Part shown: piece by piece, positions 1,664-15,810 of the stretch | Position numbering within the stretch: the first letter of the stretch is position 1 | Layout: each line of letters starts with the position of its first letter | Assembly (NCBI RefSeq): GCF_963664735.1 | Contig: NZ_OY761553.1 | Coordinates: forward strand, 2,309,303-2,373,302 | From: an uncultured Cohaesibacter sp. | GTDB taxonomy: Bacteria; Pseudomonadota; Alphaproteobacteria; Rhizobiales; Cohaesibacteraceae | Length of the DNA stretch: 64,000 bases | Reading direction: 5' to 3' | Notes under the pieces: model-generated | What the model was told of the DNA's origin: nothing | What the model saw: only the letters and a program-made list of their open reading frames with translations | Databases searched by the model: none | Made by a program: the position numbers and the translations under genes

Positions 1664-1674
1664 GGGGATGGTGC
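1664..1674. other. Left attachment core (att)
   Basis: GGGGATGGTGC is identical to the copy at the tRNA-Thr 3' end (15411-15421). The short identity suits a large serine recombinase, which needs only a few shared bases. The ATG within it opens the displaced recombinase tail. Confidence 0.75.
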
Positions 1675-1781
1675 GCCTAGAGAGAGAAAGGTGGAACTCT
1701 GTTTTTGAGCAACTGACAGAATGGGAAAGTTATTTGAAGGCAGAAAACATCGATATTGACGCGATCTTGAACGAATACTAG
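1668..1781 (+). CDS. Displaced native C-terminal tail of the element's recombinase (37 codons)
   Basis: A 37-codon open frame beginning at the ATG of the left att core and ending in a TAG, just before the convergent hsdR stop. If the two att cores are joined as in an excised circle, the recombinase frame (which has the same ATG GTG at 15415-15420) continues in phase through these codons. This gives a charged, helical tail (MVRLERERWNSVFEQLTEWE at its start). I infer it is the true end of the recombinase, separated by integration. The purine run before the ATG could act as a ribosome site, so a free peptide is possible but unsupported. Confidence 0.7.
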   Translation: MVRLERERWNSVFEQLTEWESYLKAENIDIDAILNEY

Positions 1782-1790
1782 GCAGCAGGG

Positions 1791-1809
1791 AGGTCTAAAC
1801 CTTAGACCT
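1791..1809. terminator. Hairpin between convergent hsdR and recombinase tail
   Basis: AGGTCTAA-ACC-TTAGACCT forms an 8-bp perfect stem that includes the hsdR stop codon. There is no strong T-run on either side. In the circular element it would separate the recombinase 3' end from hsdR, so it may be a weak bidirectional terminator. Confidence 0.4.
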
Positions 1810-4800
1810 TTCCGCCTACGCCTTTGAACTTCTCGACGAATGCTGCGATTTTCTCAAATACGCTCTGTTTTTTTGCTCGGAACTGAGGGTTGAGAGGGCT
1901 CATCTTTGGCAGTATGGCATTGAGTTCAATTCCACGGTCACTGGCGAACTCGTGTTTCAGCGAGGTTTCCATGTATCTTCGCGCGGCATCCACATTCAAA
2001 TTTTCTCCCCTGATAAGCTCTTCGGCCTCACTTTTCTGTTGTATCTGAGCAAAGGCAAAAAACGCCTCAATTATACCGGCTTTATCTCCGATCTTATCCA
2101 AATCTGTCTGACCGATGAAATCTACAAGGAGACCCTCTTTCGCACGGTTTCCAATGCTCGCTCGAATCAATCGGCGTACTTCGCCAACCAGATCGCCTTT
2201 GCTTTTTGTCTTCTTGTTATGCTCAAAAATCAGTTCAAGGATATAATCTAGATTGATCTCTTGTGATTTGAGGAGATCGATTTCAAATACGACATCATCC
2301 CAATTGATCTTTGATTCATCCTGCTCGTCTCCCGCTTTTTGTTGACGAAGCCAGTCACGAATATCGTTGTATGTAGATTTATAATCCTGAATTTTGCGTT
2401 CCGCAGGCATATGGATCGCTTGGAGCTCTTCAACGTCCTGATCAGTTAAATACCGTTCTGCTTTGAACGCCTCAACGGCGGCCTCATCGGTCAAATCTAC
2501 GTCTTGCAATGCCTTGAGATTGTCAAACTCGTCATAATTTCTGAGCAGGTTCTCAGCACGTAGATATTCACCGAAGAGTTTGGAGAAGGCTTTCTTTTCT
2601 TCCTCAGTCTCAATGTCTGACGGGTTGGGAAAGCTCTGCTCCAGCTCTTCAACAATTTCAAGGAAACCACGCCTATTTTCCCCTGTTGCGGTATCAGAGA
2701 AGCCTTCCATATATTCTTTGTAGCTCTTCTCCAAGACAACATTCTTGGTATTGCTATCACCGAACAGAGTAATGGCTTCAACAGTTGCGCTTTCAAGATC
2801 ACGAAACGTGACGATATTGCCAAAGGTTTTGGTGGCATCATATATGCGGTTCGTACGGGAATAGGCTTGTATCAATCCATGAAATCGCAAGTTTTTGTCT
2901 ACGAACAAAGTGTTCAAGCTTGGAGCATCGAAACCTGTCAAGAACATGCCCACCACAATTAGCAAATCGATCTCTTTGGACTTTACGCGTTTTGCCAGAT
3001 CCCGATAATAATTTTGAAAACCATTACTATCTACACTGAAGTTGGTCTTGAAATAGGCGTTATAGTCATCAATTGCAGCCTTAAGGAATTCCTTGGCGCT
3101 GCTGTCCATTGCCGAAACTTCGAAATTTTCATCTTGAATCTCGCCAATCGCATTTTGAGCTTCATTGGCTGCATACGAGAAGATGGTTGCGATCTTGAGC
3201 GGCCTTTCAGCATCCTTCTGCAACCTATTCAAGGTCTCATAATAAAGCTTGGCAGCATCAACACTACTAACGGCAAACATGGCATTGAAGCCCTTATTGC
3301 GCCCGTAAAGTCGATGGGTCTTCTGATTGAAATTTTTCAAAACATACTGAGAAATTTCGCCAATTCGTTCTGGATGCAAGAGAGCATGTTTGTTTTCTGC
3401 TGCGCTGAGCTTCTGCTCATCTTGTTCCGTTTCTATCGCCTTGAATTGGGGTCGCACATCATTGTAGTCGACCTTGAATTTCAGCACCTTTTCGTCACGG
3501 ATTGCATCCGTTATCACATAGGAATGCAGCTCGGCACCAAACACGCTCCCTGTCGTTTCTGCTCCTGATGCGTTTTCTGGAAAAATCGGCGTGCCGGTGA
3601 AGCCAAACTGGTAGAACCGTTTGAATTTCTTCTTCAGATTTTTTTGCGCTTCACCAAACTGGCTCCGGTGGCACTCGTCAAAAATGAACACCACTTGCTG
3701 ATCATAGACCGGCAGATCGCTTTCGCTCTTCATCAGGTTGTTGAGCTTTTGGATGGTTGTAACGACAATCTTGTTGTCGTCCTTGCTCAGGTTTCGTTTC
3801 AGACCAGCAGTGCTGTCCGATCCATTTACGCTGTCTGGCGAGAAACGCTGATACTCCTTCATTGTCTGATAATCGAGGTCCTTTCGGTCCACGACGAAGA
3901 AGACTTTGTCGATAAAATCAAGCTCGGTCGCAAGGCGTGCGGCTTTGAAACTGGTCAGTGTTTTTCCCGAACCTGTGGTGTGCCAAATATACCCGCCGCT
4001 TTCTGGCTTTTTCCATTTTTTTGCTTGATACGAACTCTTGATTTTCCAGAGAATGCGTTCCGTTGCGGCAATCTGATACGGCCGCATGACCAGCAAGGTA
4101 TCGCTGACATCAAATACGGAATAATGAAGCAACACATTGAGCAGCGTACGCTTCTGAAAAAACGTCGCCGTGAAATCCTTTAGATCCTTGATCAGGCTGT
4201 TGTCGGCCTGCGCCCAGTTCATGGTGAAGTCGAAACTGTTCTTGTCTCTCTTCGTCGTGTTGGCAAAGTACCGACTATCGGTTCCGTTTGAAATCACAAA
4301 CAACTGCAAATATTTGAAAAGAGAATACTCGCTATTGAAGCTTTCCTTGCTGTATCTGTGGACCTGATTGAAGGCTTCACGAATAGCCACACCACGCTTT
4401 TTCAGCTCGATCTGAACCAACGGCAAGCCATTGACAAGAATGGTCACATCATATCGGTTGGCATGCGAACCGGATTGTTCGAATTGGTTGATCACCTGAA
4501 GCTTGTTACGGGCGATGTTCTTTTTGTCGACCAGATAGATGTTCTGGATATGCCCATCATTAAACACAAAATCATAAATATAGTTTTCGTGGATTTTTCT
4601 GGTTTTATCGGTGATGCTGTCGCTGGATTTATCCAAATAGGTTTCGACAAACCGTTTCCACTCATTCCCTGAAAATGTGACGCTATTCAGCATTTCCAGT
4701 TGCAGACGTATGTTTGCGAGCATGGCCTCCGGGGTGGTCAAACCAGGTACGAACTCATAGCCCTGATTGATCAGATCCTGAACGAGTTCACGCTCGAGAT

Positions 4801-13897: not shown

Positions 13898-15410
13898 AAT
13901 GGAACCTAAAACAGAAAAGGCGGTTATTTACTGCAGGGTATCATCGAAGAAACAAACCGAAGGAAGTGGTCTGAGTTCGCAGGAGCATCGCTGCCGTGAG
14001 TATGCGGATGAACGCGGCTATGACGTCGAGGCTGTATTTCCAGATGATGTTTCAGGCGGGGGCGACTTTATGAAGCGCCCTGGGATGGTGGCCTTGCTCG
14101 CTTATCTCGATGCCTTTCCGCAGCATGACTACGTTGTGATCTTTGACGATCTTAAACGCTATGCCCGTGACACTGAGTTTCATCTAAAGCTGCGCCGTGA
14201 AATGATGGCGCGCAATGCCCGTCGTGAGTGTTTGAATTTCAATTTTGAGGATACGCCCGAAGGGAAATTCATAGAGACCATTCTCGCTGCGCAAGGCGAG
14301 CTGGAGCGCACCCAAAACAGTCGTCAGGTTTTGCAGAAAATGATTGCCCGCGTTGAGCAAGGCTATTGTGTTTTTCGCGCGCCCGTTGGCTATAAGTATG
14401 TGAGGTCGCCCAATGGCGCAAAAAGTGCTCATGCGGGATGAACCTGTCGCGACAATCCTGCAAGACGGGCTTGAAGGGTTTGCATCAGGGCGCTTTGCTA
14501 CGCAGACAGAATTGAAACGCTTCCTAGAGCGTCATCCAGTTTATCCGAAAGATCTCCCCAATGGAGAACTGCGCCCATACACCGTGACGCGACTTCTCAA
14601 TAAACCCGTTTATGCAGGATATGTTGAAGCCCCCAAATGGGGAGTTTCTCTTCGCAAAGGCAATCATCAAGGACTAATCTCGTTTGATACCTTCCAGAAA
14701 ATCCAGCGTAATCTCGAAACGGGTGGCTACGCGCCGACACGTAAAGACATAAGCGAGGATTTTCCGTTGCGCGGTTTTGTAATCTGCGGGGAGTGCGGAC
14801 AAAACTACAAGGCTGTATGGTCCAAGGGCAAATACAAAAAATATCCCTATTATCGCTGCGATAATAAAAAATGCTCCTGTTACGGCAAATCCATCTCTCG
14901 TAACAAGATCGAAGGTGAGTTCGGGGAAGTCGTCCGCTCTCTTCAACCAAACAAGAGTTTGTTCGAGATGACGCGCGCTATGTTCAAACATGCATGGGAT
15001 ATTCGCTCGGTGCAGTTCGAGGAAATGCGTCTTGCTCTCAAGAAAGAAATCCAAGGCATCAACAAGCAGACAGAAAATCTTCTGGAGCGGATTATGGCGA
15101 CATCCAATCCGACCGTGATCCATGCCTATGAAGATAAGATCACTCAGCTTGAGAAAAATAAGCTCGTCTTATCCGAAAAGCTTCAAAATAAGGGACCGAG
15201 AAAAGGCACCCAAGAGGAATTCATGGAACTCTCCATGAAATTTCTCGCAAACCCTTATAATATTTGGGTTTCTGGTGATCTTAAGTTGAAGAGATTAGTG
15301 CTCAGAATGGCTTTTACCGACAAAATTTCCTACACCAAAAATCAGGGGTATGGAACACCAAAAACAGCCTTAACTTTCAAGGTGTTAGATGATATTTCTG
15401 AGCACAAAGA

Positions 15411-15421
15411 GGGGATGGTGC
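15411..15421. other. Right attachment core (att) at the tRNA-Thr 3' end
   Basis: GGGGATGGTGC is the second copy of the core at 1664-1674. It covers the final bases of tRNA-Thr including CCA and lies in frame inside the recombinase gene (ATG GTG at 15415-15420). Confidence 0.75.
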
Positions 15422-15490
15422 TGCAAGAGAGAATTGAACTCTCGACCTCTCCCTTACCAAGGGAGTGCTCTACCACTGAGCTACTGCAGC
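15416..15490 (-). tRNA. tRNA-Thr (anticodon GGT)
   Basis: A complete 75-nt cloverleaf on the minus strand: acceptor GCTGCAG paired with TTGCAGC (one G-U), D arm GCTC...GAGC, anticodon stem CTCCC/GGGAG with GGT at 15456-15458, T arm GAGAGTTCAATTCTC, discriminator A and encoded CCA. The 3' end is the integration site of the element and is restored after insertion. The recombinase frame reads through it in antisense. Confidence 0.97.
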
Positions 15491-15810
15491 GTTCCGAGGT
15501 GTTTTGATCAAATGATCATCACCTGATGCGGGCGGTTTTTTGCATACAGATTTCGATTATGCAAGAGCGTTTTTGAAAAAAGACAACAATTTTGTGAATT
15601 TGGTGACATCTGTGAAAATCATACACGCCTCCAGTGAACATTCTTGCCTCATCAAGTCTGGCCCCTGAGCCGTAAACCAAGACTCCCGAAAAAGCGCATA
15701 AGAGCCCCAAAATGGCCTCATTGTGGGCTTTCTTAGCCCGAACTTTTGGTATAGAACCTGCCAAAAGGCAAATTTCAGGATCCGTTCATTGCAAAAATTG
15801 CAGTAAAACA
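15491..15810. other. Intergenic region between tRNA-Thr and the next gene
   Basis: It must contain the tRNA-Thr promoter (minus strand) and the promoter of the small basic protein (plus strand). Open frames here overlap in antisense and have no ribosome sites. No other structure was seen. Confidence 0.4.

Follow-up and report, generated by a model that had tools for sequence, protein, structure and literature searches.

In some described systems, the attachment (att) site of a mobile element lies within the gene of the recombinase that acts on it. As outlined in two sources that mention the Myxococcus phage Mx8, its attP site is located inside the integrase gene, and the resident integrase obtains a different, shorter and less active C-terminus (PMC4701971, PMC4383910). 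The first of these sources also mentions the streptococcal rumA integrative and conjugative elements (ICEs), in which a serine integrase has its att site inside its own gene and exchanges its C-terminus on integration (PMC4701971), and the archaeal SSV-type suicidal integrases have been summarized as tyrosine enzymes whose gene contains the recombination site and which are split into two inactive parts (PMC8371274). Here, we describe a comparable arrangement in a window of 64,000 nucleotides (the whole stretch of DNA analyzed; NZ_OY761553.1, positions 2,309,303 to 2,373,302) from an uncultured Cohaesibacter sp. The best explanation, to which we assign a probability of roughly 85%, is that its segment 1664-15421 is an integrated mobilizable element, equipped with a relaxase, MobC and a type I restriction system with a PrrC-like gene, and that this element belongs to a family whose attP site lies in the gene of its own recombinase, such that the C-terminal tail of the enzyme is swapped on integration and the original tail serves the free form.

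Like Mx8, the proposed family has attP within the integrase gene and has the C-terminus replaced on integration. However, Mx8 uses a tyrosine integrase, whereas the family considered here consists of serine recombinases, as indicated by the Pfam Resolvase domain, has several tRNA targets and possesses a tail that is conserved over many genera. The rumA elements share with it a serine integrase with an att site in its own gene, but they insert into rumA, which codes for a protein, and exchange the 3' part of that gene, whereas here the tRNA would stay intact and the new tail would be antisense tRNA. SSV-type systems also have the recombination site in the integrase gene, yet they yield two inactive halves of a tyrosine enzyme, whereas in the present family only the C-terminal tail would be exchanged and the domains are often found in one frame. 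With the integrases of A118/LI, Bxb1, phiC31 and SPbeta, the family shares the domain order, fold matches and an attP motif that lies 5 bp farther out than in attB; to our knowledge, an overlap of attP with the coding end of the gene is not known in them. The principle is already known from Mx8 and the rumA ICEs, and a serine recombinase family that follows it at tRNA genes is a new variant. We found no description of this alphaproteobacterial family in the literature searched, with most subscription journals being outside the reach of that search.

Within the window (Table 1), the core repeat GGGGATGGTGC is exact at the tRNA-Thr end and at the far end of the element, as stated in the original prediction, and has no other perfect match. 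The right copy is indeed in frame inside the recombinase, because the frame 14413-15507 passes through it, terminating with ..EGMVLQERIELSTSPLPRECSTTELLQRSEVF. According to the coordinates, about 23 of the last 28 codons lie within antisense tRNA-Thr, so that the proposed origin of all 28 from the tRNA holds for this part, whereas the remainder comes from the 5' flank of the tRNA gene. Since four matches with one mismatch occur in the window versus 1.23 expected, an 11-bp repeat alone is weak evidence. Joining the cores would, as predicted, continue the frame into codons 1668-1781, which are open in the required phase up to the stop at 1781. The accompanying argument that this openness has no other reason did not stand, because the tail frame is already open from position 1530 and the open phase alone thus meant little. 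What raises the observation above chance is the conservation of the tail in other elements.

Table 1. Features of the window that are considered in the text.
Feature	Position	Strand	Basis
Left core repeat, putative hybrid att site (host flank and element arm)	1664..1674	+	identical to 15411-15421
Putative orphaned 37-codon recombinase tail with stop (free-form C-terminus)	1668..1781	+	frame; relatives; L261
GTGGAAC, a T-loop-like motif in the element arm (first base 22 nt from the T of TGG)	1691..1697	+	motif spacing
Type I restriction subunit HsdR, cargo	1802..4930	-	Pfam/PADLOC
PrrC-like protein (anticodon nuclease family), cargo	4896..6074	-	PADLOC PrrC, E 4.4e-128
HsdS, cargo	6076..7329	-	Pfam/PADLOC
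HsdM, cargo	7326..8870	-	Pfam/PADLOC
Small helix-turn-helix protein	8867..9061	-	Pfam HTH_17
Relaxase (MobA/VirD2-like)	9512..10774	-	Pfam PF03432, E 1.1e-5
Mobilisation protein (NikA/MobC-like)	10704..11159	-	Pfam
DUF927 protein	11411..13279	-	Pfam
Conserved small open reading frame immediately preceding the recombinase (directionality factor candidate)	13460..13897	+	iterated model search
Recombinase, catalytic part (frame 1 of 2)	13863..14441	+	Pfam Resolvase
Recombinase, DNA-binding part (frame 2 of 2), into antisense tRNA-Thr	14413..15507	+	Pfam Recombinase, Zn_ribbon_recom
Right core repeat, overlapping the 3' end of the tRNA and in frame within the recombinase	15411..15421	+	repeat match
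tRNA-Thr(GGT), attachment target, intact	15416-15490	-	ARAGORN

With a 39-residue query from around the left core, similar frames were detected in other genomes, and the convincing matches directly follow NTGG (N, any base), with differing DNA on the opposite side. In the loci examined, a tail model identified 46 distinct places, 45 of them with a readable stop (L113, at the same place as L095, had none and was left out), and 44 of these 45 usable tails are in frame with the core position. Among 385 genomes of the class, 28 tail matches were obtained in 21 genomes (G395 being the same metagenome-assembled genome as G048), none of them joined to a whole recombinase (frames of at most 242 codons). 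In a set of 398 genomes from the phylum, 17 matched the tail, 14 of them within Alphaproteobacteria; the other three matches were weak (E 0.001-0.009), lay inside frames of 194-1336 aa and were taken as chance. In 28 elements, tail and recombinase are located on one contig and the same strand, with the tail upstream. These comprise the window, G047:C33, G048:C24, G050:C56, G050:C49, G011:C7, G015:C25, G017:C25, G011:C1, G020:C4, G005:C499, G010:C20, G040:C2, G145:C36, G180:C8, G159:C15, G082:C1, G281:C349, G281:C80, G063:C1, G434:C1, G291:C6, G381:C42, G175:C1, G208:C1, G251:C1, the remnant G049:C8 and a Tritonibacter element. The pair in G434:C1 spans the contig ends and is valid only if this 5.46-Mb contig is circular, those in G010:C20 and G040:C2 had weak model scores and were checked by sequence, and G281:C349 has two tails upstream of a single recombinase. 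No same-contig pair in opposite orientation was seen among the accepted matches. In several genomes, tails and recombinases are found only on separate contigs, or the tail occurs without a recombinase match (G055, G197, G292).

Two remnants of about 1.6-1.7 kb (L137 in G049:C8 and G208:C1:1556528-1558268) have the tail end beside a truncated recombinase. The window itself also contains a weak tail-like peptide just upstream of the recombinase (13719-13811; 34-35% identity, E 0.04-0.8), which probably reflects chance.

Relatives of the recombinase were sought in 41 genomes, a species collection, IMG/VR, and plasmid and phage collections. The query matched 35 of the 41 genomes, in many cases solely via the antisense-tRNA stretch, as well as 14 loci in the species collection and six plasmid and four phage records, with the tail being present in four plasmid records; IMG/VR was scanned four more times with recombinase or profile queries, yielding 1, 0 and 0 relatives in three scans and 18 in the fourth. 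Altogether, 37 matches extend to the C-terminal region, and a tRNA was called immediately downstream of 28 of them. In 26 of these 28, the recombinase enters the antisense tRNA in one shared frame (N|TG G), in which TGG corresponds to the tRNA CCA read in antisense; G018_C1b and G005_C1164 depart from this pattern, both being out of frame. In the comparison of att sites, the row for G017:C25 is not a true recombinase end (it is truncated and has no tRNA), and its exclusion leaves 26 of 26 in frame. The targets comprise tRNAs for Thr, Arg, Ser, Leu, Ala, Val and Tyr, and the C-terminus after the core and the position of the stop therefore vary by element. Relatives ending in antisense tRNA had initially been regarded as evidence against a tail swap. 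Where a tRNA was called, the relatives overwhelmingly do end in this way; this does not refute the proposal, because each end matches its own tRNA, as the model predicts.

Many relatives have a single open recombinase frame of about 500-660 codons, and others are partial or broken. In LXYP01000033.1 (Sphingomonadales bacterium EhC05), for instance, a recombinase frame of 536 codons is intact and the contig contains both element ends. The window recombinase has Resolvase, Recombinase and zinc-ribbon domains, which identifies it as a large serine recombinase/integrase according to Pfam; PF07508 reaches 21.0 bits in the relative L052, against a cut-off of 21.1, and 18.5 in L261, which is also under the cut-off. 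In an AlphaFold2 model of one integrated form (predicted template modelling score 0.52), the last 50 residues (501-550), including all those after the core, have a predicted local distance difference test (pLDDT) score below 50, and long helices are predicted at 362-410 and 414-439 (zinc-domain coiled coil). The best Foldseek matches of this model are the SPbeta and Bxb1 integrases, although the superposition of the whole chains is poor, with a template modelling score of at most about 0.42. In G012:C1 near 1399250 (L164/L082) and in L024, a tRNA-Thr-like sequence after the recombinase end is represented only by its 3' part, and G012 has a more complete tRNA-Thr match at a distance of about 7 kb, which suggests that a second island has inserted within the tRNA gene.

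The spacing of motifs around the core provides a further point of comparison. As described by Rutherford et al. (2013; PMC3783163), the zinc-domain motif of serine integrases is displaced by 5 bp between attP and attB, lying farther out in attP. On the tail side, the scan placed the start of a T-loop-like motif (..CGAAC) at 24 nt from the T of TGG for 43 of the 45 tails; in the other two, it was placed at 24 in a second comparison (G049:C8) or by eye (G050:C4). On the tRNA side, it starts at 19 in 26 of 27 cases, the single miss being G017:C25, which has no tRNA. Given the known displacement, these values indicate that the far end of the element resembles an attP arm and the tRNA an attB arm, and the 5-bp shift typical of large serine integrases is thus found on the right half-site, to which the comparison applies. 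By analogy, the motif GTGGAAC in the element arm of the window may have the role of the zinc-domain motif. The shared core measures 3 to 15 bp, or 0 in one decayed copy. Second sites resembling the att arm lie about 70-155 bp outside the tails in L179 (1347), L191 (1426, minus strand), L195 (1426, minus strand) and L100 (506); they are possibly remnants of earlier insertions into the same tRNA.

The conservation of the tail could reflect its function as DNA, as protein or as both, and codon analysis points to a division along its length. It was based on the 40 indel-free tails among the 44, with the out-of-frame tail L106 (G050:C4) absent from the alignment. In codons 1-10, the frequencies of the commonest base at the three codon positions are 0.80/0.72/0.75, as for a DNA site, whereas in codons 11-26 they are 0.59/0.76/0.44, as for a protein. 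In the latter segment, the proportions of nonsynonymous (pN) and synonymous (pS) differences over all 780 pairs are 0.43 and 0.81, giving a ratio of 0.52 in frame versus 0.78 and 1.59 in the other two frames; an earlier run had picked pairs by protein identity and was thus biased, which does not apply to the 780-pair run. Stops in codons 2-26 occur in none of the 40 tails in frame but interrupt 35 and 31 of them when read in the other two frames, for tails found by a protein model. The distances between tails correlate with those between recombinases (Mantel r 0.29, 23 pairs; 6 of 5000 permutations as high), and AlphaFold2 predicts the tail alone to form a helix over residues 2-25 (mean pLDDT 82.9). 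Beyond the att arm, the tail thus evolves as a protein. Because it is conserved as a protein yet joined to the recombinase only in the free form, it would act in a step that the free form carries out, with integration as the simplest option.

An uninterrupted version of the gene is present in L261, a phage-like contig from IMG/VR. Here, recombinase and tail form one frame of 533 aa (ATG at 2224 to 3825) that ends with ..LVDISGESSNSFLDILRNWSDALNPYKSTLLAA and includes the attP spacing in frame; no tRNA was detected in the 6.8 kb examined. It is situated between phage genes, with a replication-initiation-like gene upstream and genes for tail completion and a DNA methylase downstream. L261 thus bears out the expectation that a related recombinase would have a C-terminus matching codons 1668-1781 and, together with the tails at the same place in relatives, the view that these codons represent the free-form C-terminus. 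An empty site was found for another member of the family: plasmid p2 of Tritonibacter mobilis A3R06 carries an 18,147-bp element at tRNA-Thr with both ends kept (L227, NZ_CP110385.1 771500-795000), and in T. mobilis F1926 the flanks of this element are adjacent, with 55 of 60 nt identical on the left and 46 of 46 on the tRNA side. At the sequence level, F1926 thus displays the exact empty site for this truncated family member. Within the Cohaesibacter genus, the right side of the window locus (tRNA-Thr and the murA region) is conserved, and the left sides, at the 3' side of tRNA-Thr, are variable. Positions 1-1490 of the window and the preceding 4.8 kb, a region with an IclR-type regulator, are conserved in G001 and G007 away from tRNA-Thr, and the similarity stops near 1490.

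Comparison of the sequences delineates the element boundaries, an in-frame tail, the attP/attB shift, one uninterrupted gene and one exact empty site, all of which can be accommodated in a common model. In this model, the attP site lies within the 3' part of the element's own gene for a recombinase of the large-serine-recombinase family, with the crossover occurring within or beside TGG, the antisense of the tRNA-encoded CCA. Integration leaves the tRNA intact, separates the native tail from the gene, so that it ends up at the opposite end of the element, and provides the integrated gene with a new C-terminus read from antisense tRNA; excision would restore the native tail. The claim that circular and integrated forms encode different recombinases, with an exchange at the end of the gene, is supported by the tails at the same place, the antisense-tRNA ends and L261. 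The predicted helical tail would be needed for a task of the free form, most likely integration by attP x attB recombination, and the integrated isoform would lack this activity or mediate only excision together with a directionality factor, perhaps the product of the upstream open reading frame. The resident form may be inactive, may have reduced activity, as in Mx8, or may be specific to excision, and a regulatory switch is plausible. It is tempting to speculate, at a little less than even odds, that these enzymes are self-recording serine integrases, in which the helical tail licenses attP x attB recombination, integration overwrites the tail, and the resident isoform and the upstream protein only excise, a device reused over many tRNAs in mobilizable elements and phages.

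Several other explanations have to be considered. The swap may be real but have no regulatory meaning, if captured tRNA-like DNA had placed attP at the end of the gene, both forms were equal and the tail were an ordinary part of the enzyme. We regard this scenario as rather unlikely. It agrees with the fact that the integrated C-termini vary with the tRNA, because of which a defined C-terminus is not needed for the gene to stay open, and DNA constraint alone can explain the first ten tail codons. However, conservation of the tail as a protein extends far past the att arm, even though recombinase and tail are connected only in the free form, and the altered form of Mx8 is reported to be less active (PMC4701971). 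Less likely still is a suicidal system of the archaeal type, in which integration inactivates the recombinase and release needs another copy: the recombinase is split in the window and broken in G049:C8, G208:C1, G017:C25, G018_C1b and A3R06, but a long frame has remained uninterrupted in many integrated relatives, and 15 aligned ones (one of them, L028, cut by a contig end) share the resolvase, recombinase and zinc regions. We give very little credence to the idea that the tail represents a small gene of its own, located at the left end and initiated at the core NTG after integration. Its frame is readable alone, 44 of 45 tails have NTG at the core (ATG 28, TTG 8, GTG 6, CTG 2), and 4-mers resembling Shine-Dalgarno sequences are present upstream of 9 of 43, compared with 4.7 by shuffling; yet the NTG is dictated by the TGG core, such a 4-mer is absent in 34 of 43, the upstream DNA is differing host sequence, and the tail frame fits the recombinase, with L261 carrying both as one gene. 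Finally, the repeat at 1664 could be due to chance, or the left end could lie elsewhere and the tail be an unrelated frame, consistent with the weakness of a lone 11-bp repeat and a left flank that was not found beside tRNA-Thr in relatives. This explanation has virtually no weight and was ruled out, because 27 other elements have left ends that are homologous to the tail at 1668 and begin at the same core position.

A tail swap between the free and the integrated form thus remains our preferred explanation, and the following observations weigh against it. The tail search by protein model favours open and conserved frames. When loci totalling 1.56 Mb, some of which overlap, were scanned with only the DNA motif, 66 places were obtained, of which 40 have the tail signature and 26 do not, and at least 25 codons are open in the first frame in 51 of the 66 versus 11 and 33 in the other two. 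The tail L106 is out of frame. The L261 contig comprises 27,427 bases, is metagenomic and may be a fragment, and it is the sole uninterrupted form among 18 IMG/VR loci; of the other 17, three have a called tRNA at the end, five look antisense-tRNA-like by eye, two are distant and seven are unclear. The A3R06 recombinase is truncated, with 236 codons open up to the core and no catalytic motif found in the 2 kb before it. No empty site was found at the window locus: in a comparison covering 1.5 kb beside tRNA-Thr (665 nt in one genome), the left flank lies beside tRNA-Thr in none of 17 other genomes of the genus, and the expected junction of 1663 with 15422 was not found in them. Further points are the broken integrated copies named above and the state of the window recombinase itself, whose catalytic and DNA-binding parts were found in different frames, a point that the original prediction did not mention.

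The frame change in the window copy is located between 14413 and 14441 and not at the att site. Because the gene is spread over two frames, it probably yields no single full-length recombinase, and the change may represent either real decay or a sequencing error, which look the same here. Programmed frameshifting is not supported, because intact relatives are read in one frame.

The tail swap accounts for a class of odd recombinase C-termini and of orphan frames, about 25-55 codons long, that occur in genomes of Alphaproteobacteria, and it provides exact element boundaries. It also bears on target choice. The Islander paper of 2014 describes the use of tRNA genes by serine recombinases as uncommon, or not known, and a survey of Paracoccus mentions one serine-recombinase phage at tRNA-Met (PMC6536676). 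The original prediction, which called such use uncommon, is thus right with respect to print but not for the present family, which usually resides at tRNA 3' ends, contrary to the Islander paper. Moreover, the family is a natural test case for the possible control of recombination direction by a C-terminal tail in serine recombinases, with the tail, the att arm and the small partner gene being defined well enough for an assay.

The position of the small open reading frame just upstream of the recombinase suggests that it encodes a directionality factor. In Mx8, the gene upstream of int is likewise said to be a directionality factor. Among the matches listed for the upstream frame, 70 are distinct and have a positive score; 64 of them end at most 120 nt from a downstream recombinase-like catalytic motif, one lies at 230 nt, and five have no motif seen, with some of the loci overlapping one another. 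Representatives of this frame showed no Pfam family and no clear PHROGs family.

The element has its own integrase as well as relaxase and MobC domains, and no conjugation families were detected among its 12 main open reading frames scanned for Pfam domains, as is characteristic of an integrative and mobilizable element, which has no full conjugation machinery. The type I restriction operon at 1802-8870 (minus strand) has the order hsdM-hsdS-prrC-hsdR, with a strong PrrC match. PrrC is an anticodon nuclease, and the PrrC-like gene sits on an element that resides in a tRNA gene.

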